This document shows, in pieces, positions 11,023 through 30,226 of a DNA stretch of 47,199 bases; the stretch's first letter is position 1, and every line of letters begins with the position of its first letter. Below the pieces are notes generated by a model. It saw nothing but the letters and a program-made list of their open reading frames with translations. It was not told the origin of the DNA and did not search any database. Both the position numbers and the translations under genes were made by a program. The stretch comes from Verrucomicrobiota bacterium. GTDB lineage: Bacteria > Verrucomicrobiota > Verrucomicrobiia > Chthoniobacterales > Terrimicrobiaceae. The stretch covers positions 1-47,199 of the forward strand of contig JAPLTF010000010.1 of NCBI GenBank assembly GCA_026398275.1. Reading direction: 5' to 3'.

Positions 11023-14000
11023 GTGGAATCCATTCGTATTCGCGGCGCGCGTCAGAATAATCTGCGCGGCATGGATTTGGAGCTGCCTCTTGGGCAACTC
11101 ATCGTCGTGACCGGGCCCAGCGGATGCGGCAAGTCGAGCCTGGCTTTTGACACCGTCTACGCCGAGGGCCAGCGCCGGTATGTGGAGACGTTCAGCCCGT
11201 ATACCCGGCAGTTTCTCGACCGGATGGACAAGCCGCTTGTGGATTCGATCGAGGGGATCCCGCCAGCGATTGCGATCGAGCAGGCGAACAACGTCCGCAC
11301 CACCCGCTCGACGGTGGGCACGATCACCGAGATCAACGATTATCTCAAGCTCCTCTTCCCGCGGATCGCGCGCGGATTCTGCCCCTCCTGCTCGAGAGAG
11401 GTCCGGCCAGAATCCGCGACCTCGATCGTGGAGCTGGTGCTGGGCCGGTTCCAGGGCGCGACCGTTCTCGTGACCTTCGGCGTCCCGGTCCCCGCCGGCA
11501 CAAAACCGGCCGACTTTTTCGCGTTTTTGCAGCAGCAGGGATACCTGCGTGTCTGGCTCGATGGAAAAATCGTCCGCACCGACGAAGCGCCCCCGGTCAA
11601 GCGGCTCCCGGCGCGCGTGCCCGTGGTCCAGGACCGCATCGAAGTCGAGCGATCCCAGCGCTCTCGCCTGGCCGAGGCGGTGGAAAACGCGCTTCGCCTC
11701 GGCAGCGACAAGATCGCCATCGTGGTTCCGGACTCGCTGGAATCGCATCCGTTTTCCTCAGGCTGGCACTGCGCGCATTGCGACACGGATATCCGTCCGC
11801 CGTCCCCCGGCCTCTTCAGTTTCAACAACCCGCTGGGAGCCTGCCCGGAATGCCGCGGGTTCGGGCGGATCATCGGCATCGACTATCAGCGGGTCATGCC
11901 GGACCGCTCGCTCTCGATCTCCGAGGGCGTCGTCAAGCCGTTCCAGGGCGGACAATCCCGCGAGTGCCAGGACGATCTGATGCGCCACGCGCTGCGCAAC
12001 GACGTGGATGTCAGCACCCCGTTCGAGGAGCTTCCGAGGAAGGATCAGGACTGGGTGATCAACGGGGAAAAATCCGGGACCGCGCAGGAGGCCTGGGACA
12101 GCGGCCAGTGGTATGGAGTGAAGGGGTATTTCGAGTGGCTCGAATCGAAGACCTACAAGATGCACGTCCGCGTGCTGCTCAGCCGCTACCGGAGCTACCA
12201 GCCATGCCCGGCCTGCAATGGCGGGCGGTTCCAGCCGGAGACGCTGAATTTCCGCATCGAGCCCGCCGACCTCACGATCGCGGATGTCGCCTCGAAGTCG
12301 GTCTCAGAGCTGTCCGGCATCTTCTCGGCGATCTCGCTTCCCAAGTCGGACAGCAGCGCGCATCTCGTCCACGAGCAGGTGGTGGCCCGCCTGCATTATT
12401 TGAAGGAAGTCGGGCTCGGCTACCTGACGCTCGACCGCCCGACCCGGTCGCTTTCCGGCGGCGAGCTCCAGCGCGTCAACCTCACCACCTGCCTCGGGGC
12501 TTCGCTGGTGAACACGCTTTTCGTCCTCGATGAGCCGAGCGTCGGTCTCCATCCGCGGGACACCGGCCAGCTGCTCCACGTTCTTTGCGGGCTGCGGGAC
12601 AAGGGCAACACCCTGCTCGTGGTCGAGCACGAGGAGGCGGTGATCCGGACGGCTGACCACCTCGTGGACATCGGGCCCGGGCGCGGAGCGGATGGAGGCC
12701 TGCTTCTCTACAGCGGCCCGGCGGACAAATTTAAAAAAGTGGATTCACTCACGTCCGACTACCTCGATGGCCGGAGGTCGATCCCGGTTCCGAAGAAGCG
12801 GCGGAAGCCAACGAACTTCATCGAGCTGCGCGGCGTCCGCCACCACAACCTGCGCGGGCTGGATGTCAAATTTCCCACCGGCGTCCTCTGCGCGGTGACC
12901 GGCGTCTCCGGCTCCGGAAAAACTTCTCTCGTCCGCGACGTTCTCCACCGCCACCTTGCAGGCCATGAGCCGGGCGAGGACGAGGCGGCGGGGTTTGTAA
13001 AATCCATCCGCGGCGACGAGGACATCGGGGACGTGGTCATGGTTGACCAATCACCGCTGGCCCGCAGCCCGCGCTCGACGCCGGCAGTTTACCTCGGCGC
13101 CTATGACGGGATCCGCGAGATGTTCGGCACGACGAAGGAGGCGCTCGCCGGCGGTTATTCGCCGGGCTCGTTCTCGTTCAACTCCGGCCAGGGCCGTTGC
13201 GAGCGGTGCGGCGGCCTGGGATTTGAAAAGGTGGAGATGCAGTTTCTCAGCGATCTTTACCTCCGCTGCCCGGAGTGCGAAGGCAAGCGGTTCCGGACGC
13301 CGGTCCTCAACATCAAGGTCAAAGGCAAATCGATCCACGATGTGCTGGAGATGACCGCCGGGGAGGCCATCAAATTCTTTGATCCGCTCGACGCGCGCGG
13401 GGCGATCACCCGGCCGCTGCGGCTCCTGTCGGAGGTCGGGCTCGACTACCTGCGCCTCGGCCAGCCGGTGAACGCGCTGAGCGGCGGCGAATCCCAGCGG
13501 CTGAAGCTCGTGCACCATCTGATCCAGAAGCACGAGGACGGCGCGCTTCTGATTTTCGACGAGCCGACGACCGGCCTGCATTTCGACGATGTGGCCCTCC
13601 TGCTCAAGGTCTTTCACCGTCTCGTCGAAGAGGGCAACAGCGTCATCGTGATCGAGCACAATCTCGAAGTCGTCAAATCCGCGGACTGGGTCGTGGACCT
13701 CGGACCCGAGGGCGGGGACGAGGGAGGAAAAGTCATCGCCACCGGAACCCCGGAAAAGATCGCCGCCTGCGCGGCCTCCCACACCGGGCGGTTTTTGGTG
13801 CCGCTTCTCGAGGGCCGCGCCGCCCGCGTCGCGGACGCCCCCTCGAAACCATTTGTCGCGCGAAAGGACAGCGGAGTCATCGCGGTCCGCGGCGCCCGCG
13901 AGCACAACCTGAAAAATCTTTCGGTCGACATTCCCCGCGACGGGATGGTCGTGGTCACCGGCCTCAGCGGCTCGGGAAAATCGACCCTCGCGTTCGACAT

Positions 14001-16467
14001 TCTTTTTGCCGAAGGCCAGCGACGGTTCCTCGACAGCATGTCCCCGTATGCCCGGCAGTTCGTCGAGCAGATGGAAAAGCCGGATGTCGATTCGATCGAG
14101 GGACTCCCCCCAAGCGTCGCGATCGAGCAGCGGGTCACCCGCGGCGGGGGAAAATCCACGGTCGCCACGGTCACCGAGATCTACCATTTCCTCCGGCTTC
14201 TCTTCTCGAAGCTCGGCACCCAGCACTGCCCGGATTGCCATGTGCCGGTCGAAAGCCGGACTCCGACGGCCATCGCGGAGGAGGTCAACAAGCTCGCCGC
14301 GAAAGGGTCGGTGAAGGTTTACGCGAACCTCGTCAAAGCCCGCAAAGGCTTCCACACCGATGTCGCCCGCGCCGCAGCCAGACACGGGATCGTGACGCTC
14401 ATCGTGGACGGCAAGCCGGTGCCGGTCGAAGGGTTTCAAAAGCTCGAACGCTTCAAGGAGCACACGATCGACGCCCTCGTGGGAGAGCTCGCGAAGCCGG
14501 ATTCCAAAGCCACCGACGAGGTTGTCCGCCGCGCGCTCGCGCTCGGCCGCGGCACCGCGCGCATCGTGGATGCCAAAGGCCGCGCATCGGTTCTCAGCAC
14601 AGAGATGAACTGCCCGTCGTGCAGCCGGGCCTTCGAAGCGCTCGATCCCCGGTTGTTTTCGTTCAACTCCCCGCACGGCTGGTGCCTGCACTGCCGCGGA
14701 TTCGGGGAAGTCTGGAGCGAGCTGGGGGCCGCCGGAAAAGAATTTGATTCCCAGATCGAGGCCGAGCTCGATGAGGAGCGCCGGCACGAAAACCTGGAGG
14801 ACACGGAGCCCCGCCAGTGCCCGGTCTGCAAGGGTTCGCGCCTGAATGAGACGGCCTCGAATGTTCTCATCGGCGACCACTCGATCAATAATTTCACGCG
14901 CGCCGCCGCCGCGGATTCCCTCGGGCTCACAGAAAAACTCCGCTTCACCGGACCGCGCGCCGGGATCGCGAAGGAGGTCGTCTCGGAGATCCAGCAGCGG
15001 CTCAAGTTCCTGGCGACGGTCGGCCTGGATTACCTCTCGCTCGACCGCAGCGCCAAGACGCTGAGCGGCGGCGAGGCCCAGCGGATCCGGCTGGCCGCGC
15101 AACTCGGCTCGAACCTCCGCGGGGTTCTCTACGTCCTCGATGAGCCGACGATCGGCCTCCACCCTCGCGACAATGCGCGCCTGCTCGACGCGCTCGAAGT
15201 CCTCACCAAAAAGGGCAACTCGCTCGTCGTCGTCGAACATGACGAGGAGACCATGCGGCGGGCGGATCGGATTCTCGACCTTGGACCGGGTGCCGGACGG
15301 CGCGGCGGAGAAATCGTCGCCTCGGGCACCCTTGAGGAAATCATCAACTCGCCCCAGTCGCTCACCGGCCAATCCCTCCGCGCGCCGGCCAAACATCCCT
15401 CGCGCGGATCAAGGCGCCCTCCCGCGACCGACTGGCTCACCGTTCGCGGCATCACGCTGCATAATGTCACAAATGTCGATGCGAGGATCCCGATCAACCG
15501 CCTCACCGCGATCAGCGGCGTCTCCGGCTCGGGCAAGAGCACGGTCCTTCGCGGGGTCGTGGTGCCGGCCGTTCGCGATTCGCTGTCGCGCACGAAATCC
15601 AAGACGATATTCGACCACTGCAAATCCATCGAGGGGCTCGAATGGCTCGGTGGAGTTCTTGAGGTCGACCAGTCACCGATTGGAAAGACGTCCCGATCCA
15701 CGCCAGCGACATACGTCAAGGTCCTCGATGACATCCGCGCCCTCTTCGCGACCCTCCCCGCCTCGCGGATGCGCGGCTACACGAACAGCCGGTTTTCCTT
15801 CAACAACGAAGGCGGACGCTGCGAGGCCTGCCTCGGGCAGGGAGTGATCAAGCTGGAGATGAATTTCCTCCCGCCGAGCTACATGCCGTGCCAGGACTGC
15901 CTCGGCCGCCGCTACAATCCCGCCACGCTCGAGGTCGAATACAATGGCAAGTCGATCGGGGATGTCATGGACATGACGATCGAGCAGGCAGCGGAATTCT
16001 TTTCCGCGCACCCGAAAATCAAGCGCCCGCTCGCCCTCCTTGTCGAGACCGGACTCGGATACCTCCAGCTCGGCCAGCCGAGCCCGACGCTCAGTGGCGG
16101 CGAGGCCCAGCGGATCAAGCTCGTCACCCAGCTCGCCCGCCGACCGACCGCCCGCGCGGAGGAGGTCCGAACGACCCGCCGCGGCAAGTCCACCCTCTAT
16201 GTCCTCGAGGAACCGACGATCGGGCTTCATGCCCACGACGTCGCCCAGCTCATCGCCGTCCTCCACCGCCTCGTGGACGAAGGCGGAACGGTCGTCGTCA
16301 TCGAGCACCACCTCGACGTCATCGCCGAGGCGGACCACGTCATCGACATCGGCCCCGAGGCCGGTGCGGCCGGCGGAAAAATCGTCGCCGAAGGCACCCC
16401 CGAACACATCGCCAAATCCAAGACCAGCCGCACCGCCCCTTTTCTCAAGGGGTTGCTGCCTTTTTAG
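11023..16467 (+). CDS. uvrA: Double-length UvrA (two tandem UvrA units)
   Basis: The 1,814-residue protein from a GTG start contains four ABC ATPase modules in place of two. Walker A loops lie at about 31 (GPSGCGKSS), 627 (GVSGSGKTS), 980 (GLSGSGKST) and 1499 (GVSGSGKST). ABC signatures lie at about 477 (LSGGELQR), 819 (LSGGESQR), 1347 (LSGGEAQR) and 1690 (LSGGEAQR). Each half has the insertion and zinc-finger cysteines (CPSC...[14 protein letters not shown]...[14 protein letters not shown]...CQDC). UvrA recognises bulky DNA lesions with UvrB in nucleotide excision repair, normally as a dimer of about 940-residue subunits. Here the dimer is covalent, as in Chlamydia, and all motifs are intact. 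The 3' end overlaps the convergent cobA-hemD by 23 bp. Confidence 0.97.
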
Positions 16468-18082: not shown

Positions 18083-19693
18083 CTACAGCAGACACTTCTC
18101 GCCCTCGGCGTTCCGGGCGAGCCATTCGATCAGCTCGTTGATGGGGGCCGGTTTCGCGAAGAAAAACCCCTGGCCGAACTCCACGCCGAGATTGCGCAGG
18201 TAGTCCACCTGCGCGGAGTGTTCGATGCCCTCGGCGATCAGTTCGAGCCCGCAGGCCCGGCCGATGGAGACGATCTGGTCAACGAGCCCGGAGCTCTTGG
18301 CTTCGTTCGTGATGCCGTCCACAAACGCCTTGTCGATCTTGAGGAAATCGAACGGGAACAGCGAGAGGTAGCGGAGGTTGGAGTAGCCGGTCCCGAAGTC
18401 ATCCACCGCCAGGCGGATGCCGAGATCCTTCATCACGCGGAGCTGCCCGAGCGCCGCGTCGGTCAGCGACGTGCTCTCCGTGAGCTCGAAGGAAATATTC
18501 TCATAGCTGAACTTCCCCTTGATGAGCCGGTCGACGTGCGCGGGAAAGGACGGGTTCGTCAGCGTCTGCACCGGGATGTTGATTGCGGCATGCAGGTGGG
18601 GGAATTCCTTGAACACCGGCACCAGCTCCTCAAAAGCGCGGACCATCATGCATTCGGTCAGCTCGGTGATCACGCCGGTGCGCTCGGCCTCCGGGATGAA
18701 GGCGAGCGGAGGGACAAGCCCGCGCTTGGGATGCTGCCAGCGCATGAGCACCTCCAGCCCCTCGCATTTTCCCGTCTCAAGATTCAGGATCGGCTGGTAG
18801 TGGGCAACCACCTGCCGGAGGCGGGCAGCCTCACGGAGCTCGGACTCCAGGGAGAGCGACTGCGCGTTCGCCACCCAGGCGGCCACAAAGAAACAGAGCG
18901 CCAGCACAAGCGCCAGGCCGCCGTAAAGCGGAAGGCTCTGCCCCCAGAGCGCCCAAAGCGCACCCTTGGGCAAAACGGCGACCACCGCGTAGTTGTATCC
19001 GGGAACAATCTGCGAATACACAAGCTCGCTCTCGGTCTCGGAAAGTCCGGGGGGCGGCACCTTGCCGGGAGGGGCTGCGTTGATCGAGGCATTCACAGAG
19101 CGGTCCAGAACCACCCCGTCCTGGCGCATGAAATAGACCGCATCGCCACCTTTGCGGTCCCCGTATCGCATCAGCTCACCGATCGTCTGCGTCGGGATCG
19201 AAAGCCCGTAGAGATAGTTTTTCCCGGAGTTGTAGTTGATGATCATCGCATCGGCCCGGTCCCCATGGCTGGGACGCGGGAGGAGCCGGACCTCGCCGAC
19301 CGGACCGAGCTGGCAAAGGGCGGGATCCATGGGGGACGGCGGCTCGATGAGCCCGACATCCGTGCAAACAAGCTGCCCGTCTTTGACCATCCACGCCTCG
19401 CGGAAGATGGTGCTTTCCAAAACCAGCCGCCTCAGCGCCGCAGCAGTCTGGGTGGAGACAGCCCCCTGGTTTGCCTGGTCCAGAAGCTGCAATTTGGAGC
19501 GCGCGCCGTTGACGAGGCGGCCGATCGCATCGGCCCACAGGCCGGTCTTTTCCGCCATCGAATCCACGGCCGTCATGCGGGTCTGCCGGTAGGAAAGCGA
19601 GGCCGACCCGCCGATGGCTGCCAGGGCGCCCAGGATGGCAACACCCATCATCAATATCCGGAAAGTGCGGTTCTGAAGGGCGGGCAATGGCAT
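18083..19693 (-). CDS. Membrane c-di-GMP phosphodiesterase with CSS-like sensor (EAL domain)
   Basis: The 536-residue protein has a membrane segment near 12-33, an extracytoplasmic region to about 254, a second membrane segment near 255-277, and a C-terminal EAL domain. Catalytic elements are present: EGLEVLMRW (E311; EGL in place of EAL, an accepted variant), N372, E405, AVDDFGTGYSN (D431, D432), K452, AEGIEH (E488) and GQGFFFAKP (Q508). The sensor resembles the CSS-motif domain of PdeC-type enzymes but reads Cys110-Thr-Asp, with a second cysteine at 127. In that family the cysteine pair senses periplasmic redox state. It should hydrolyse cyclic di-GMP, favouring motility over surface growth. 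Confidence 0.9.
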   Translation of the reverse strand: MPLPALQNRTFRILMMGVAILGALAAIGGSASLSYRQTRMTAVDSMAEKTGLWADAIGRLVNGARSKLQLLDQANQGAVSTQTAAALRRLVLESTIFREAWMVKDGQLVCTDVGLIEPPSPMDPALCQLGPVGEVRLLPRPSHGDRADAMIINYNSGKNYLYGLSIPTQTIGELMRYGDRKGGDAVYFMRQDGVVLDRSVNASINAAPPGKVPPPGLSETESELVYSQIVPGYNYAVVAVLPKGALWALWGQSLPLYGGLALVLALCFFVAAWVANAQSLSLESELREAARLRQVVAHYQPILNLETGKCEGLEVLMRWQHPKRGLVPPLAFIPEAERTGVITELTECMMVRAFEELVPVFKEFPHLHAAINIPVQTLTNPSFPAHVDRLIKGKFSYENISFELTESTSLTDAALGQLRVMKDLGIRLAVDDFGTGYSNLRYLSLFPFDFLKIDKAFVDGITNEAKSSGLVDQIVSIGRACGLELIAEGIEHSAQVDYLRNLGVEFGQGFFFAKPAPINELIEWLARNAEGEKCLL

Positions 19694-22385
19694 GGCAAAT
19701 CACGGGGAGGGCAAGCTCGCCGCCCGGCAGTTCTATCACGATCATCGGTTGCTGAAAAGCCCGGAGAAAGTAAGATTCCTGCGTTTACCAATTGCGTGCG
19801 GAGCTCTGGCGTGGAAAATATGCCCCATCAGCAAGAGATACTACAGTTGGGAGAAAAGGAAGCGCCGGCCAAGGACCCCGCTCTACAAGCGCAAGCTGCT
19901 TTGGATTCCGCTCGGGCTCCTCTGCCTCGGAGCGTTTGCCGCGTGGGTGGCGTTCGGGGTTCTGACCTTCAATTTCGAGAAGCGCGCCGGGGAGTTCGAT
20001 CTCACGAAGGTCGGCAGCATGGAGGCGGCCTCGATCCTCTACGACCGAAACGGACACGATTTCGGAAAGATCTTCATCCAGAACCGGCAGCCGGTGCCCT
20101 ACGACCGGATCGCCCCGATGCTCACGAAGGCGGTCATCGCCGCGGAGGACAACAAATTCTACGAGCACGACGGGGTGGATTACTTCGGAATTGTGCGGGC
20201 CATGATCGCCAATTACCGGCGGGGCAAAATCTCCCAGGGCGCCAGCACGGTCACCCAGCAGCTCGCGCGGAATTCCTTCGAGCTGCACGAGCGGACCTAC
20301 CAGAGAAAAATCATGGAGATGTTTCTCTCCTGGCGGATCGAGAAAAATTTCTCGAAGGAGCGGATCATGGAGCTTTATCTGAACCGGGTTTACTTCGGGA
20401 GCGGGTTTTACGGGGCCGAGGCTGCGGCGCGCGGGTATTTCGGCCGGCCCGCCAAGGATCTCGACATCGGCCAGTGCGCGATGCTCGCGGGCCTGCTCAA
20501 AAGTCCGCAGGCCCTCTCGCCATGGAACAACATCGAGGGCGCCACCGACGTCCGGAACTTCGTGCTCAAGCGCATGCGCGAGATGGGGTTCATCACCAAA
20601 GACCAGCTGAAGGAGCAGACCGAGATGAAGCTCTACGCGGTCAAGCGCATGAACCCGTTCAAGCTCTCCTATGCGGTGGATATGATCCGCCAGCAGGCGA
20701 TCAAGGCGCTGGGATTCGACCGCGCGATGAACGGCGGATACCGGATCGAGACGACGCTCGACTCGGAAATGCAGCGGGCCGCCGAGCGGGCCACAAGGGA
20801 TTTTCTCTCGCAGCTTGAGTCAAACCCCGGCTACACCCACCCGACATTTGCCCAATACCGCGACTCCACAAAGAATATCGAGGACGCGATCAACAAGGGG
20901 AACATGGCGGCCAAGATGCCGGAGCCGAAATACATCCAGGGGGCGGCCCTGGCCCTGGACAATTCAACGGGCGGGGTCCTTGCTGTGGTCGGCGGACGGG
21001 ATTTCAAGCACAGCGAATACAACCGCGCGTTCCAGGGCACCCGCCCGATCGGCACCGCGTTTACGCCGCTTGTCTTCGCCTCCGCCTACGAGTCCGGACT
21101 GTTTCCCGGCGAAATTGTCCAGGACGCCTGCATCGACAACCGCTACGTGATGGTCGGCGGCGAGACCGGCATCCTCGGAGAGTGGGGGGTCGAGAAGGCG
21201 GACAACGAATACGAGGGCCCGATGACGACCCACGACGCCCTCGTGAAGGGGAAAAATGCGGCAACCATCCGGCTCGGGATGAAAACCGGTCTGGAGGCGC
21301 TGAAAAAGACGGTCGCCGCCGCAGGCATCACCTCCCCGCTGCGGGACTATTCAAACAGCTTCCTGGGAAGCAGCGAAATCACCCTGGACGAGATGACGCT
21401 CGCCTTCACGATCTTCCCGAACGGCGGGCAGCGCCCGAGCGAGGCGCACATCATCAAGCGGATTCTGGACGCCGACGGCGGCATCATCTACGAGGCCCCG
21501 CGCTCGATGGTGAAGGCGATTTCCCCGGCGGCCGCATTCCAGGTCCATGCGGCATTGGAAGACATCATGAAACGCGGCGCGGGCGCTGCGGCGGCGACGG
21601 AGTTCGGGCTCGGCGCGTTCCCCGTGGCTGGCAAGTCCGGCACGTCCTACAATTTCATGGACACCTACTTTTTCGGCTACACCAGCGCCGTCACCTGCGG
21701 GGTGTGGGTCGGATTCGACAAGCCGACCAAAATCTACCGCGGCGCGTTCGGAAAGGACCTCGCCCTCCCGATCTGGTCGAAAATCATGAACGTCGCCGCA
21801 ACCGCATTTCCCCCTCAGCCGTTCCCGAAGCCGCCCGACATCCGCGACGTCGAGATCTGCCGGACATCCGGCCTGCTCGCCACCCCGCGGTGCAAGCTGG
21901 ATTTTACCGACGCCTCGGGCGGGATCTCAAGCTCGCAGCCTCTCTCCTACACCGAATACGCCACCGAAGCCGAGGTGCCGCAGATCCGCTGCGACATCCA
22001 TGGCGGCGGAGTGAGGAACTATGCAAAGCAATACGACGAAGCCGAATGGCCGCGCGCCGCGGCGGCGGTGGACTCGGCAACGATCCGCCCGATCGCGGTG
22101 ATCGCCCCCACCCTGCTGGGCTTCAACGATGTTTACCAATCCATCCGCCCGGGCATGGAAACGCTCGACGACGGCTCGATCCCGGTCGCCAAGGCGATCC
22201 CGGTCACCCCGGAGAACAAGGAAGCAGGCCAGGATGCCGCGCAGAATGCGCCCGCGCCCGAGGCCACGCCGCTCCCGCCCGCCGCAGAGCCCGAGGTCCG
22301 GAAGGCCGAGAGCATCGCCCCGCTCGACTCCCCGCTGGACAAGCCGGCCATCCAGCTTCCCCCACCCGCATCGATGGATTTCTGA
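19692..22385 (+). CDS. Class A PBP-like peptidoglycan glycosyltransferase with degenerate transpeptidase domain
   Basis: The 897-residue protein has a basic tail, one membrane anchor (about 68-93), and a GT51 domain with intact motifs AEDNKFYEHDG (E152) and SQGASTVTQQLARN (181-194), plus LNRVYFGSGFYGAEAAARGY. This would polymerise lipid II glycan chains. The transpeptidase domain keeps KSGT (648-651), but the SxxK motif reads T455-A-F-T458 and the SxN motif reads G520-K-N522, so the acylated serine and the general-base lysine are both replaced. The C-terminal tail is proline-rich. The true start is uncertain: 19692 overlaps the divergent EAL gene start. It is followed at once (TGATG) by a TolC-like gene. 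Confidence 0.88.
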   Translation: MANHGEGKLAARQFYHDHRLLKSPEKVRFLRLPIACGALAWKICPISKRYYSWEKRKRRPRTPLYKRKLLWIPLGLLCLGAFAAWVAFGVLTFNFEKRAGEFDLTKVGSMEAASILYDRNGHDFGKIFIQNRQPVPYDRIAPMLTKAVIAAEDNKFYEHDGVDYFGIVRAMIANYRRGKISQGASTVTQQLARNSFELHERTYQRKIMEMFLSWRIEKNFSKERIMELYLNRVYFGSGFYGAEAAARGYFGRPAKDLDIGQCAMLAGLLKSPQALSPWNNIEGATDVRNFVLKRMREMGFITKDQLKEQTEMKLYAVKRMNPFKLSYAVDMIRQQAIKALGFDRAMNGGYRIETTLDSEMQRAAERATRDFLSQLESNPGYTHPTFAQYRDSTKNIEDAINKGNMAAKMPEPKYIQGAALALDNSTGGVLAVVGGRDFKHSEYNRAFQGTRPIGTAFTPLVFASAYESGLFPGEIVQDACIDNRYVMVGGETGILGEWGVEKADNEYEGPMTTHDALVKGKNAATIRLGMKTGLEALKKTVAAAGITSPLRDYSNSFLGSSEITLDEMTLAFTIFPNGGQRPSEAHIIKRILDADGGIIYEAPRSMVKAISPAAAFQVHAALEDIMKRGAGAAAATEFGLGAFPVAGKSGTSYNFMDTYFFGYTSAVTCGVWVGFDKPTKIYRGAFGKDLALPIWSKIMNVAATAFPPQPFPKPPDIRDVEICRTSGLLATPRCKLDFTDASGGISSSQPLSYTEYATEAEVPQIRCDIHGGGVRNYAKQYDEAEWPRAAAAVDSATIRPIAVIAPTLLGFNDVYQSIRPGMETLDDGSIPVAKAIPVTPENKEAGQDAAQNAPAPEATPLPPAAEPEVRKAESIAPLDSPLDKPAIQLPPPASMDF

Positions 22386-26216: not shown

Positions 26217-26763
26217 CCTGCAGAAATCCGACCACGGCCTTGTGGATCGCCGGTGAGATCACCGGCCACGCATGCGCGGGAACCGGGCTTTGAATCGTGG
26301 TCGTCGCAGCCTTCCAGCAGGCGGACTGGCCGGGCACGACGACCGCATCGAGCGCGCACCATGTCGCAAGCGTGGGGATGTTCCACGGCCCCTCATTCAA
26401 CCTTGTGAGAAATGCGCTGCCGGGCCGCATCTCCCTGCAGGCCGGAAGATCGTAGGCGTGCGCGAAGAGCGATCCCCGGTGCGGGGAGTGGAGGAAGACG
26501 GCGCGCCGCACAGGAAGCTCGTGCGGCATGCGCAAGGCCTCGCGGATCACCAGCCCACCCATGCTGTAGCCGACCACGTTCAGCGGGCCGCCGGCCGCGT
26601 GCAGTTCCTCGCGCAATCCCGCTCCGAGCGCTTCCAGCGAGGTGTGCCCGGAATTGTCGTAACGCCAGATCCGGCAGGGGCCGATGGATTTTTCGATGCG
26701 GCTCCGCAGGCGCTCCCAGCGCGAGTGCCCGCCCCAGATTCCATCGAGAATGAATGTCGTCAT
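26206..26763 (-). CDS. Alpha/beta hydrolase (lipase/esterase-like)
   Basis: A 185-residue alpha/beta hydrolase has the nucleophile elbow NVVGYSMGGLVI (S67), an aspartate candidate in CALDAVVVPG and a histidine in PVPAHAWPVI. It has an early GIWGG oxyanion-type turn. No signal peptide is evident. It is coupled by a four-base overlap (ATGA) to the preceding three-domain transporter-acyltransferase-ligase gene, so a role in acyl-ester turnover (lysophospholipid or acyl-donor recycling) is a fair inference. It is short for the family, with little lid region. Confidence 0.78.
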   Translation of the reverse strand: MTTFILDGIWGGHSRWERLRSRIEKSIGPCRIWRYDNSGHTSLEALGAGLREELHAAGGPLNVVGYSMGGLVIREALRMPHELPVRRAVFLHSPHRGSLFAHAYDLPACREMRPGSAFLTRLNEGPWNIPTLATWCALDAVVVPGQSACWKAATTTIQSPVPAHAWPVISPAIHKAVVGFLQASD

Positions 26764-29700
26764 GCCACGGCTGCGGCATCATTGACCAGGGCCCGACAGG
26801 CGGCAAGATCGAGCTTGCCGGTGATCAGGATCGGGAGGTGGTCGAGGTGAAGGACATGGCGCGGGATCCAAAGATTCGGGACGTCGAGCTCGCGGCACAA
26901 ATCCTCGCGCGTCAGATCGCGGGTGGTCAGCAGCACGAGCTCCTCGCCTTTCTCAATGCTCGGGCGGCCGAGAACGCAATCGTGGGCGCGACCGGTGGAA
27001 TCCGGAAACGCCCGCGCGATCGCCTCCTCAACGGCCCCGTGCGAAACCATCTCCCCGCCGACTTTCGAAAACCTCGAAAGCCTTCCTTCGAGAAAAAGAA
27101 ACCCCTCGGCATCCACGCGGACAATGTCGCCGGTGACCAGCCATCCGTCGCGGAACTTTTCCGGCGACTGGCCGTCGAGATAAGCCGAGATGATATTGGC
27201 CCCGCGCACCGCAAGCACGCCCCTCGAACCGCCCGGACATTCCTCGCCGGTCTCGGGATCAAGCAAGCGCATGGCAACTCCCGGCAGGAGTCGTCCGGTG
27301 CTGCCTTCGCGCCAGCCTTTCTGCAACGAGTCCGCCCCGAACCCGCGCGCCGGATCGGGCATATTAAAGCTCATCACCGGCGCGGCCTCGGTGAGCCCGT
27401 AGCCCGCAAAGACCTCGCATCCGAAGCGCGACCGGAACGCCGCCGCAGTCTCTGCAGGAAGCCGCTCCGCGCCTGTGGCTGCCAACCTCAGCGTGCCGAA
27501 CGCATCGCGGGGGATCCTACGCGCATACGCCCGCAGGAATGTGGGCGTGGTCAGCAGAACGGTGGCCACGCATTCGCGCGCGGCATCGGCCAGCTTTTCG
27601 CAATCCAGCGGCGACGGGGATGTGATCAGGGTGCGCCCGCTCATCAGCGGGGCGAGCATGCCCATCGTCAGCCCGAAGCTGTGAAACAGGGGCAGCGCGC
27701 TCAGCAGGCGGTCGTCGGGACGAAGGAATCCGGTCTCGCAGACCTGATGGAAATTTCCCATCACCTGGCGGTGGCTCAGGGAGACACCTTTTGGCAGACC
27801 GCTGGTGCCGCTCGTGAAGAGGACAATCGCCTCATCGTCAGGCTTCACCCGGGGCAGGCGCATGCGACGCTCGATCAGAAACGCGTGAAGAACGAGGCCT
27901 TCCAGCCATGTCCAGGCACGGCTCACGGAGGAAATCCCCTTCAGCTCGCGCTCGATGAAGACCAGGTTGTCCGGCCACGGAAAGTTCGGGATCTTCTTTA
28001 CGACGGCCTCTGCGGTGATCACGGCCTGCAATCCGGCCAGCTCCAGGCACGAGCGTGCGGCTTCGGGCGTGAGCGTGGGGTTCAGGTTGACCGGAACTTT
28101 TCCCGCGAGGATAACGGCCAGATTGGCGAGCGTCCCGGGAATCCCCGGCGGCAGCAGGATCCCGATGCGCCGCTGCGGCATGCTCCGGAGCCGGCGGGCG
28201 AGCAGCCGACCTCCCGCAAGAAGCTCGCCCCTGCGCAACATCTTCGGCCGCGAAACTGGATCGTGGATGGCAATTTTCCACGGCTCGGAATCCAGAGTGC
28301 GGATCAGGCAGGATGCCAGCGTGCGCTTGAGGGGGCGGGCGCGGAACGCCTGCTCGCCGAGTTCCAGCAGGGTTTCACGCACGCGGGATGCCGTGGCCTC
28401 CGCGACGCTGAGCGGCTTGGCAAAGGAAACCGTGACGTTGCGGCGGAGCCGGTGCGGGCACTTCGTGAAATACCGCCCGCCCTCGAACGAGTAGATCGAT
28501 CCCCACAAGCCGTCGAGATGCGCGACCACCACCGGGCACTGCGCCCGCCGCGCGATCAGCTCGAACCCGCTCTTGAGCTCCATCAGGCAGCCGGTGCGGG
28601 TCAGCTGGCCCTCGGGAAAAATGCAGACCACCTCGCCGGCCCGGATGCAGTCGGACGCCCGGACGATCGCATCCCGCGCCTTGGTCGAGGACACCGGGAT
28701 CGCGCCGAAGATGCGGAGGATTTTCCCGAGGAACAGCGCCTGGAAAAATGCGTCATACGAAAGGAACCGGATCGGCCGCGGAGAGGCGAGCGACAGGACG
28801 ATCGTGTCCACATACGTCACATGATTGCAGACCATCAGGACGCCGCCCTTGGACGGAATGTTTTCAAAGCCGGGGTTCCTCACGTCGTAGCGCCAGCGGG
28901 CGAGGAAGAACGTCACGATCCGCAACACATCCTGCGGCAACATGCTCGTGGCGAATATCGCGGTCAGAAAAAAGAGGACCGAGAGGCACAGGAACTGGCC
29001 GTGGAGCCCGAAGTGACAGACGCCTGCCACCAGCGCGTGAAGCGCCACCGCCAGAACGCCGGCGATGCTGGAGAGCATGCTGGATCCCGCGAGGATGGAC
29101 CCGCGGTGCTCCTCGGGAGCCCGGTCCACGAGAAACGCGCCGAGCGGCACGAGATACAATCCCCCGCACACGCCAAGCGCAAAGAGCCCGGCGAAGGAAA
29201 AGAAACCGCCGGCCTTCAGGTTGGCCAGCACGAAAAGAACCCCTGCAAGCCCCATGGCGGAAACTGGAACCAGCCCCATGATGATCCGGTAGCGGCAGAT
29301 GCGGGCGGCGGAAACGCTCCCGACAGCAATCCCCGCTCCCATCGTGGCCAGCATCAGCCCGGTCATCCTCGCCGCCCCCAGCCCACCGGGAAACAAGGCG
29401 CGGCCGGCCTCGGAAAGCGTCAGCAGGAGGAATCCCCCGGCCAGGTAGAACACCGCATCGCCCCACGCGGCACGACGGATGCCCGGATCCCGGCGCAGTG
29501 CCTGGATCAGAGCCCCGTGGCCGAAAACCACCCGGAGCCCGAACGGCACCCTGTTGGAGGAGGCATGCGCGGGGACCCGTCGGAAAAACCAGATCGCCAC
29601 CGCGCAACTCACCGCAAGGAGAACAAACGAGATCCCCGCCGCCTGCCACGGGCCGCCGGCGGATGCAGCAAGACCGTCGATCAACTGCCCGCCCGCGAGG

Positions 29701-30161
29701 CTCCCCGCAAGGATCGCTGCGATGCAGAACATCTCCATCCACCCCACGACCTCGCCGACGGACTCGCCGGCCAGCTCTTTGATCATGCCGCGCCGCGCGG
29801 GCGACATCAGGCTGGATTGGATCCCCAGCAGAAAAAATCCCCCCACCGCAACCGGCAGCGAGCGGATGGCAGCGGCGCCCACCAGCGCGACCATCACGGC
29901 CAGCTGCAGCCAGAGGCTGGCGGACAGCACATTCCGTTTGGGAAAGCGGTCGGACAGCCATCCGCTCACCGGCGCGAAGAGCACGAACGGGGTGACGAGC
30001 AGAAGCGCGATCAGGCTCACCACCCGGGACGCCGCATCGGCGGGAAGCAGCATCTGCACCAGGCCGATCAGGGCGAGCTTGGTGGCGTTGTCATTGAAGG
30101 CGACCTGCGTCTGCGCAAACAGCAGCCCGCCGATGCCTTTGTGTCGAAGGATTGTTTTCAT
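26760..30161 (-). CDS. Three-domain MFS transporter / PlsC acyltransferase / acyl-AMP ligase (LplT-Aas-like fusion)
   Basis: The 1,133-residue protein has three modules. Residues 1 to about 410 form an MFS transporter (SGWLSDRFPKRNVL loop) like the lysophospholipid flippase LplT. About 430-620 is a PlsC-type 1-acyl-glycerophosphate acyltransferase with NHVTYVD (His448, Asp453) and FPEGQ (516). About 630 to the end is an AMP-forming acyl ligase with LFTSGTSGLPKGVSLSHRQ (783 on), GYGLTE and WLVTGD. In Enterobacteria LplT imports lysophosphatidylethanolamine and the separate Aas protein, with the last two modules, re-acylates it. Here one chain does all. The ATG follows a GTG (30164). It is divergent from a LysR regulator and coupled to an alpha/beta hydrolase. 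Confidence 0.9.
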   Translation of the reverse strand: MKTILRHKGIGGLLFAQTQVAFNDNATKLALIGLVQMLLPADAASRVVSLIALLLVTPFVLFAPVSGWLSDRFPKRNVLSASLWLQLAVMVALVGAAAIRSLPVAVGGFFLLGIQSSLMSPARRGMIKELAGESVGEVVGWMEMFCIAAILAGSLAGGQLIDGLAASAGGPWQAAGISFVLLAVSCAVAIWFFRRVPAHASSNRVPFGLRVVFGHGALIQALRRDPGIRRAAWGDAVFYLAGGFLLLTLSEAGRALFPGGLGAARMTGLMLATMGAGIAVGSVSAARICRYRIIMGLVPVSAMGLAGVLFVLANLKAGGFFSFAGLFALGVCGGLYLVPLGAFLVDRAPEEHRGSILAGSSMLSSIAGVLAVALHALVAGVCHFGLHGQFLCLSVLFFLTAIFATSMLPQDVLRIVTFFLARWRYDVRNPGFENIPSKGGVLMVCNHVTYVDTIVLSLASPRPIRFLSYDAFFQALFLGKILRIFGAIPVSSTKARDAIVRASDCIRAGEVVCIFPEGQLTRTGCLMELKSGFELIARRAQCPVVVAHLDGLWGSIYSFEGGRYFTKCPHRLRRNVTVSFAKPLSVAEATASRVRETLLELGEQAFRARPLKRTLASCLIRTLDSEPWKIAIHDPVSRPKMLRRGELLAGGRLLARRLRSMPQRRIGILLPPGIPGTLANLAVILAGKVPVNLNPTLTPEAARSCLELAGLQAVITAEAVVKKIPNFPWPDNLVFIERELKGISSVSRAWTWLEGLVLHAFLIERRMRLPRVKPDDEAIVLFTSGTSGLPKGVSLSHRQVMGNFHQVCETGFLRPDDRLLSALPLFHSFGLTMGMLAPLMSGRTLITSPSPLDCEKLADAARECVATVLLTTPTFLRAYARRIPRDAFGTLRLAATGAERLPAETAAAFRSRFGCEVFAGYGLTEAAPVMSFNMPDPARGFGADSLQKGWREGSTGRLLPGVAMRLLDPETGEECPGGSRGVLAVRGANIISAYLDGQSPEKFRDGWLVTGDIVRVDAEGFLFLEGRLSRFSKVGGEMVSHGAVEEAIARAFPDSTGRAHDCVLGRPSIEKGEELVLLTTRDLTREDLCRELDVPNLWIPRHVLHLDHLPILITGKLDLAACRALVNDAAAVA

Positions 30162-30197
30162 CACGGGCGAGGATGGCTCGGGATTGAGAATTTACAT

Positions 30198-30226
30198 AAT
30201 CGATAATTTTTTGTCATATATCGATT
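30198..30226. promoter_or_regulatory. Inverted-repeat operator between the divergent LysR and fusion genes
   Basis: AATCGATA (30198-30205) and TATCGATT (30219-30226) are perfect inverted repeats with a 13-bp spacer in a 67-base AT-rich intergenic space. Divergent promoters with a T-N(11-13)-A palindrome are the standard LysR arrangement, so this is the probable regulator binding site. Confidence 0.55.

Follow-up and report, generated by a model that had tools for sequence, protein, structure and literature searches.

A Verrucomicrobiota class A penicillin-binding protein subfamily whose conserved transpeptidase domain lacks the catalytic serine and, in most members, the lysine

The analysed window, a 47,199-nucleotide stretch of a Verrucomicrobiota genome, encodes an 897-aa class A PBP-type protein in which all catalytic residues of the transpeptidase (TP) domain are replaced except for the KTG motif and the SxN Asn, while the motif residues of the GT51 glycosyltransferase (GT) domain are retained. 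It belongs to a group of single origin in which the nucleophile position is Thr throughout and purifying selection acts on the dead TP domain as strongly as on an active paralogue.

Protein architecture and replaced motifs

By descent the 897-aa protein belongs to the class A PBPs, with PBP_1a_fam and not mono_pep_trsgly as its top full-length NCBIfam model and a match of 495 bits to TIGR02074 (PBP1A-type; cut-off 508.75). Pfam places PF00912 at residues 129–295 (210 bits) and PF00905 at residues 417–666 (57.7 bits), so that GT51 with its catalytic motif residues and a following TP fold (PF00905, structure model, Foldseek) are both present, and the PF00905 domain sets the protein apart from an MGT, which is defined by having no TP domain. 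As the conserved homology of orthologues begins only at about residue 42–57 of the ORF, its start codon is uncertain and the annotated start may be misplaced. The annotated start overlaps by 2 bases with a divergent gene encoding an EAL/CSS-motif protein (18083–19693, minus strand). Coordinates are collected in Table 1; the structure model begins at residue 62, and the N-terminal helix comprises model residues 7–39.

Table 1. Position of the gene and its parts in the window, with the basis of each assignment.
Feature	Position	Strand	Basis or remark
Class A PBP-type gene, 897 aa	19692..22385	+	Start codon may lie downstream of 19692
N-terminal helix, presumed membrane anchor, residues 68–100	19893..19991	+	Predicted structure model
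GT51 glycosyltransferase domain	20076..20576	+	PF00912
Transpeptidase-fold domain without catalytic residues	20940..21689	+	PF00905, AlphaFold, Foldseek
Motif 1 position, T455-A-F-T458 in place of SxxK	21054..21065	+	Alignment
Group-specific insert, residues 483–501 NRYVMVGGETGILGEWGVE, between motifs 1 and 2	21138..21194	+	
Motif 2 position, G520-K-N522 in place of SxN	21249..21257	+	Alignment
Motif 3, K648-S-G-T, kept	21633..21644	+	Alignment

Aligned to Pseudomonas aeruginosa PBP1A (4oon), TAFT at 455–458 falls on SSFK, GKN at 520–522 on SRN and KSGT at 648–651 on KTGT, which bears out the claim of an earlier note on this DNA that SxxK and SxN had been replaced while the fold and KSGT were kept; the note's coordinates for the ORF likewise proved exact. 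Of the three class A motifs, the SxxK tetrad and SxN are thus absent and KTG is present. A real SxxK placed elsewhere in the domain, which the note had named as a possible refutation, was not found: the sole S..K is S605MVK, and it is not conserved in orthologues. Chance or an assembly error is ruled out by the occurrence of T455 and GKN in 23/23 readable orthologues of the same family, and a sequencing error or young pseudogene by the orthologues together with the dN/dS values given below. Because the catalytic Ser and Lys are absent, acylation by substrate or penicillin would not be expected.

The AlphaFold model has a mean pLDDT of 88, with the TP domain mostly above 90, and its top Foldseek matches are PBP1b/PBP1A; the TP fold is thus predicted to be retained. 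The sole segment with pLDDT below 50 is residues 489–496 of the insert. Due to this low-confidence modelling, a location of the insert near the old active-site groove is a guess. Conservation combined with low-confidence placement is what one would expect of a binding element, as which we tentatively regard the insert.

The pattern was followed in an alignment of 150 proteins, consisting of 119 with Thr at the nucleophile position (the group) and 31 others that are paralogues from the same lineages. While Thr is found in 119/119 group members, position 458 is still Lys in eight of them (TAFK, TVFK, TAIK), and motif 2 reads GKN in 89, SKN in 16 and SKI in 7. Motif 3 is KTGT or KSGT in most members, with few altered (KGG, WGG). 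Retained are the KTG Lys (K648, 117/118), G650 (118/118) and the SxN Asn (N522, 109/119), the latter being lost in members from family f15 (SKI), and Lys521 is near-invariant, with Arg or His in some members from family f33. All 31 paralogues have intact SxxK and KTGT, and SxN is present in all but one (SDD). At motif 3 the group has KTGTAY and the paralogues KTGTTN. The insert, a diagnostic feature that the earlier note had overlooked, has at its end the signature G-[ILVF]-LGEWG, which occurs in 119/119 pseudo-TP proteins versus 0/31 canonical ones, in which the insert columns are mostly gaps, and its residues E497 and W498 are invariant across the group.

In the GT half, E152, D153, H159, K206 and E209 are conserved in 118/118 readable group members, so the perfect GT51 motifs described for the single protein hold for the group. 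As these residues are invariant, lipid II polymerisation by the predicted GT51 domain is likely. At the sequence level, the description of the protein as a glycosyltransferase with a retained pseudo-transpeptidase is right.

Distribution, origin and selection

In the same GTDB family, 25/26 genomes contain the gene in whole or in part, and 26/26 the canonical paralogue. The motif 1 pattern of the 23 readable cases from this family is T-[AIV]-F-[TV], with GKN at motif 2 in every case; the orthologue alignment proposed earlier as a check on TAFT conservation therefore shows T455 fixed in the family as in the whole group. A strong match is present in most sampled genomes across Chthoniobacterales. 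Two complete 0.9-Mb genomes of the same order (G031 and G040) gave no match or one of E = 4e-6 for the gene; they may be endosymbionts whose class A PBPs have been lost. Outside Chthoniobacterales, the degenerate type was seen only in f15 and f33 among the sampled class and phylum genomes whose matches were read. Both families look Verrucomicrobiales-like and f15 Akkermansiaceae-like. As loci named Verrucomicrobiales and Akkermansiaceae have the same degenerate type, the gut bacterium Akkermansia very probably has an orthologue too. When 84,980 species were scanned, 79 loci came up, nearly every one with a Verrucomicrobiota label; unrelated bacteria were scanned with insert-region peptides only, so that independent dead class A PBPs there could be missed. 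One MAG among the 79 is labelled Proteobacteria, and its sequence lies near Spartobacteria. The suspected lineage trait is hence real, with orthologues across Chthoniobacterales and also in Verrucomicrobiales.

The pseudo-TP group has a single origin. In a tree of the GT domain alone, 52/53 pseudo-TP proteins form one clade (SH-aLRT 98) that adjoins canonical SRN-type paralogues, and in a tree of GT plus TP from which the catalytic and insert columns and one protein (L151) were removed, clade support is 100; supports are SH-aLRT values, not bootstrap, and the root was placed by the PBP1C-like outgroup of the GT-domain tree. Ser-to-Thr maps to the tree as one change, and the state changes at Lys, Ser520 and Asn522 number 3, 7 and 4, respectively. 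The exception in the GT-domain tree is L151 (G249:C1:362400-367400), whose placement is unsure on a very long branch. Its genome also encodes the main pseudo-transpeptidase orthologue, so that L151 is a second class A PBP of this kind there; its motifs have decayed further (TAFL, GKT, WGGT), and it has the insert (GVLGEWG).

Purifying selection on the dead TP domain is as strong as on the active paralogue, with no sign of relaxed decay. NG86 dN/dS for the pseudo-TP domain among close orthologues is about 0.02–0.17, compared to 0.09–0.14 for the active paralogue TP (pairs with unsaturated dS), these ratios being rough given that dS often approaches or exceeds 1. In a matched comparison of the window genome with its nearest relative, the pseudo-TP has a dN of 0.094 and the active TP one of 0.090.

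Genome context and cell wall toolkit

The host genome (4.66 Mb, 98.7% complete) encodes three class A PBPs. The two besides the 897-aa protein both have intact TP motifs, one being PBP1A-type (STVK, SRN, KTGT) and the other PBP1C-like (STLK/SLN). Three class B-type transpeptidase proteins, two SEDS proteins and eleven YkuD L,D-transpeptidase-type proteins are encoded as well, and given this full toolkit, wall synthesis is not reduced in this genome. In the relative Verrucomicrobium spinosum, canonical peptidoglycan and essential SEDS and class B PBP genes have been reported (PMC12283558). The link drawn in the earlier note to the reduced or unusual peptidoglycan of PVC bacteria is consequently not supported, and a PVC-wide reduced-wall explanation was rejected, as the type is confined to Chthoniobacterales, f15 and f33 in the genomes read and the toolkit is complete.

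Beside the orthologues, we found no conserved neighbour gene hinting at a partner; the adjoining genes (EAL, outer-membrane efflux) do not recur there and were dismissed as operon partners. Elsewhere in the window, positions 11023–16467 (plus strand) encode a 1814-aa double-length UvrA with two UvrA_inter matches, which resembles the double-length UvrA of Chlamydia, and an antisense pair of ORFs longer than 1130 aa lies at 26754–30206 (plus strand, without Pfam match) and 26760–30164 (minus strand).

Proposed function and related systems

The explanation we regard as best, and probably correct, is a GT polymerase with a docking or regulatory pseudo-TP domain and cross-linking in trans. The paralogue would stem from a single, ancient duplication within Verrucomicrobiota of a PBP1A-type gene. 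Ser-to-Thr at the nucleophile would have come first and become fixed, and the Lys general base and the Ser of SxN would have been lost several times afterwards. The membrane-anchored protein would still polymerise lipid II via GT51, neither cross-linking strands nor being acylated by penicillin. Its TP domain would have been retained as a docking or regulatory module, in which the TP shell, the KTG strand and the new, conserved insert (GILGEWG) may bind nascent peptidoglycan or a partner protein. Cross-linking of the strands would fall to intact PBPs or L,D-transpeptidases acting in trans. We favour this reading because the GT motifs are invariant, the catalytic Ser and Lys are lost and precedents exist: Escherichia coli PBP1b S510A still polymerises lipid II in partnership with an L,D-transpeptidase that forms the cross-links (PMC5089857), and Clostridioides difficile PBP3 is reported to support division independently of its own catalytic activity (PMC12539705).

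The retention of K648, G650 and N522 in nearly all members although nucleophile and base are gone may point to some ligand binding or residual chemistry. It would suit a TP pocket acting as a non-covalent peptidoglycan sensor, with the KTG strand and the Asn binding D-Ala-D-Ala stems and gating the GT domain. We nevertheless consider such a sensor unlikely, as f15 members lack the Asn and a few members have a changed KTG, whereas every member keeps the insert. In the eight TxxK members Thr could conceivably act as nucleophile, and the full conservation of Thr455, Glu497 and Trp498 with a near-invariant Lys521 could be taken to suggest new or altered TP catalysis through Thr455, Lys521 or the insert residues. 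With the Lys base missing in 111/119 members and Lys521 not invariant in f33 (Arg or His in some), this appears very improbable, and we know of no precedent for new catalytic activity of such a TP domain. Least credible of all is a decaying, functionless duplicate TP tolerated next to a needed GT domain: the repeated independent alterations of Lys, Ser and Asn would fit decay, but it is contradicted by purifying selection equal to that on the active paralogue, by the invariant group-specific insert and by the strong matches found in the majority of Chthoniobacterales genomes sampled.

In the open-access literature searched, we found no description of an inactive or pseudo-transpeptidase class A PBP subfamily; a survey that counts Akkermansia as having an aPBP leaves a dead TP domain unmentioned (PMC8406291). 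Going beyond the docking or regulatory pseudo-TP domain favoured above, it is possible, if somewhat doubtful, that in this ancient Verrucomicrobiota-specific subfamily GILGEWG recruits a lineage-specific partner or cross-linker and the pseudo-TP domain is a dedicated receptor or regulator. If true, these bacteria, Akkermansia included, would have a beta-lactam-insensitive glycan polymerase of a kind unseen in model organisms. One predicted wall polymerase in these species should escape penicillin probes, and the annotation "bifunctional PBP" is misleading for the group. The non-chemical role of the TP half is usually probed by engineered mutants, of which a deep lineage here offers a natural equivalent. 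With targeted mutagenesis available for V. spinosum (PMC12283558), the lineage has a tractable member.

Compared to known systems, the 897-aa protein shares GT51 plus TP architecture, fold and KTG with PBP1A-type class A PBPs (TIGR02074; 4oon), but differs from them in lacking the catalytic Ser and Lys, in GKN replacing SxN and in the extra GILGEWG insert. The predicted GT-only activity resembles that of the monofunctional glycosyltransferases MtgA and SgtB, whereas the complete, conserved TP fold does not. The likeness to C. difficile PBP3 (PMC12539705) is a PBP role independent of catalysis; that protein is class B, its non-catalytic role was established by experiment, and it is no case of natural loss of catalytic residues. 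A further related case is E. coli PBP1b S510A (PMC5089857), in which the TP domain of a class A PBP is likewise dead and to which the group here would correspond in its predicted GT competence and proposed separate cross-linker. That protein is an engineered laboratory point mutant, whereas the group described here is a natural, conserved subfamily.
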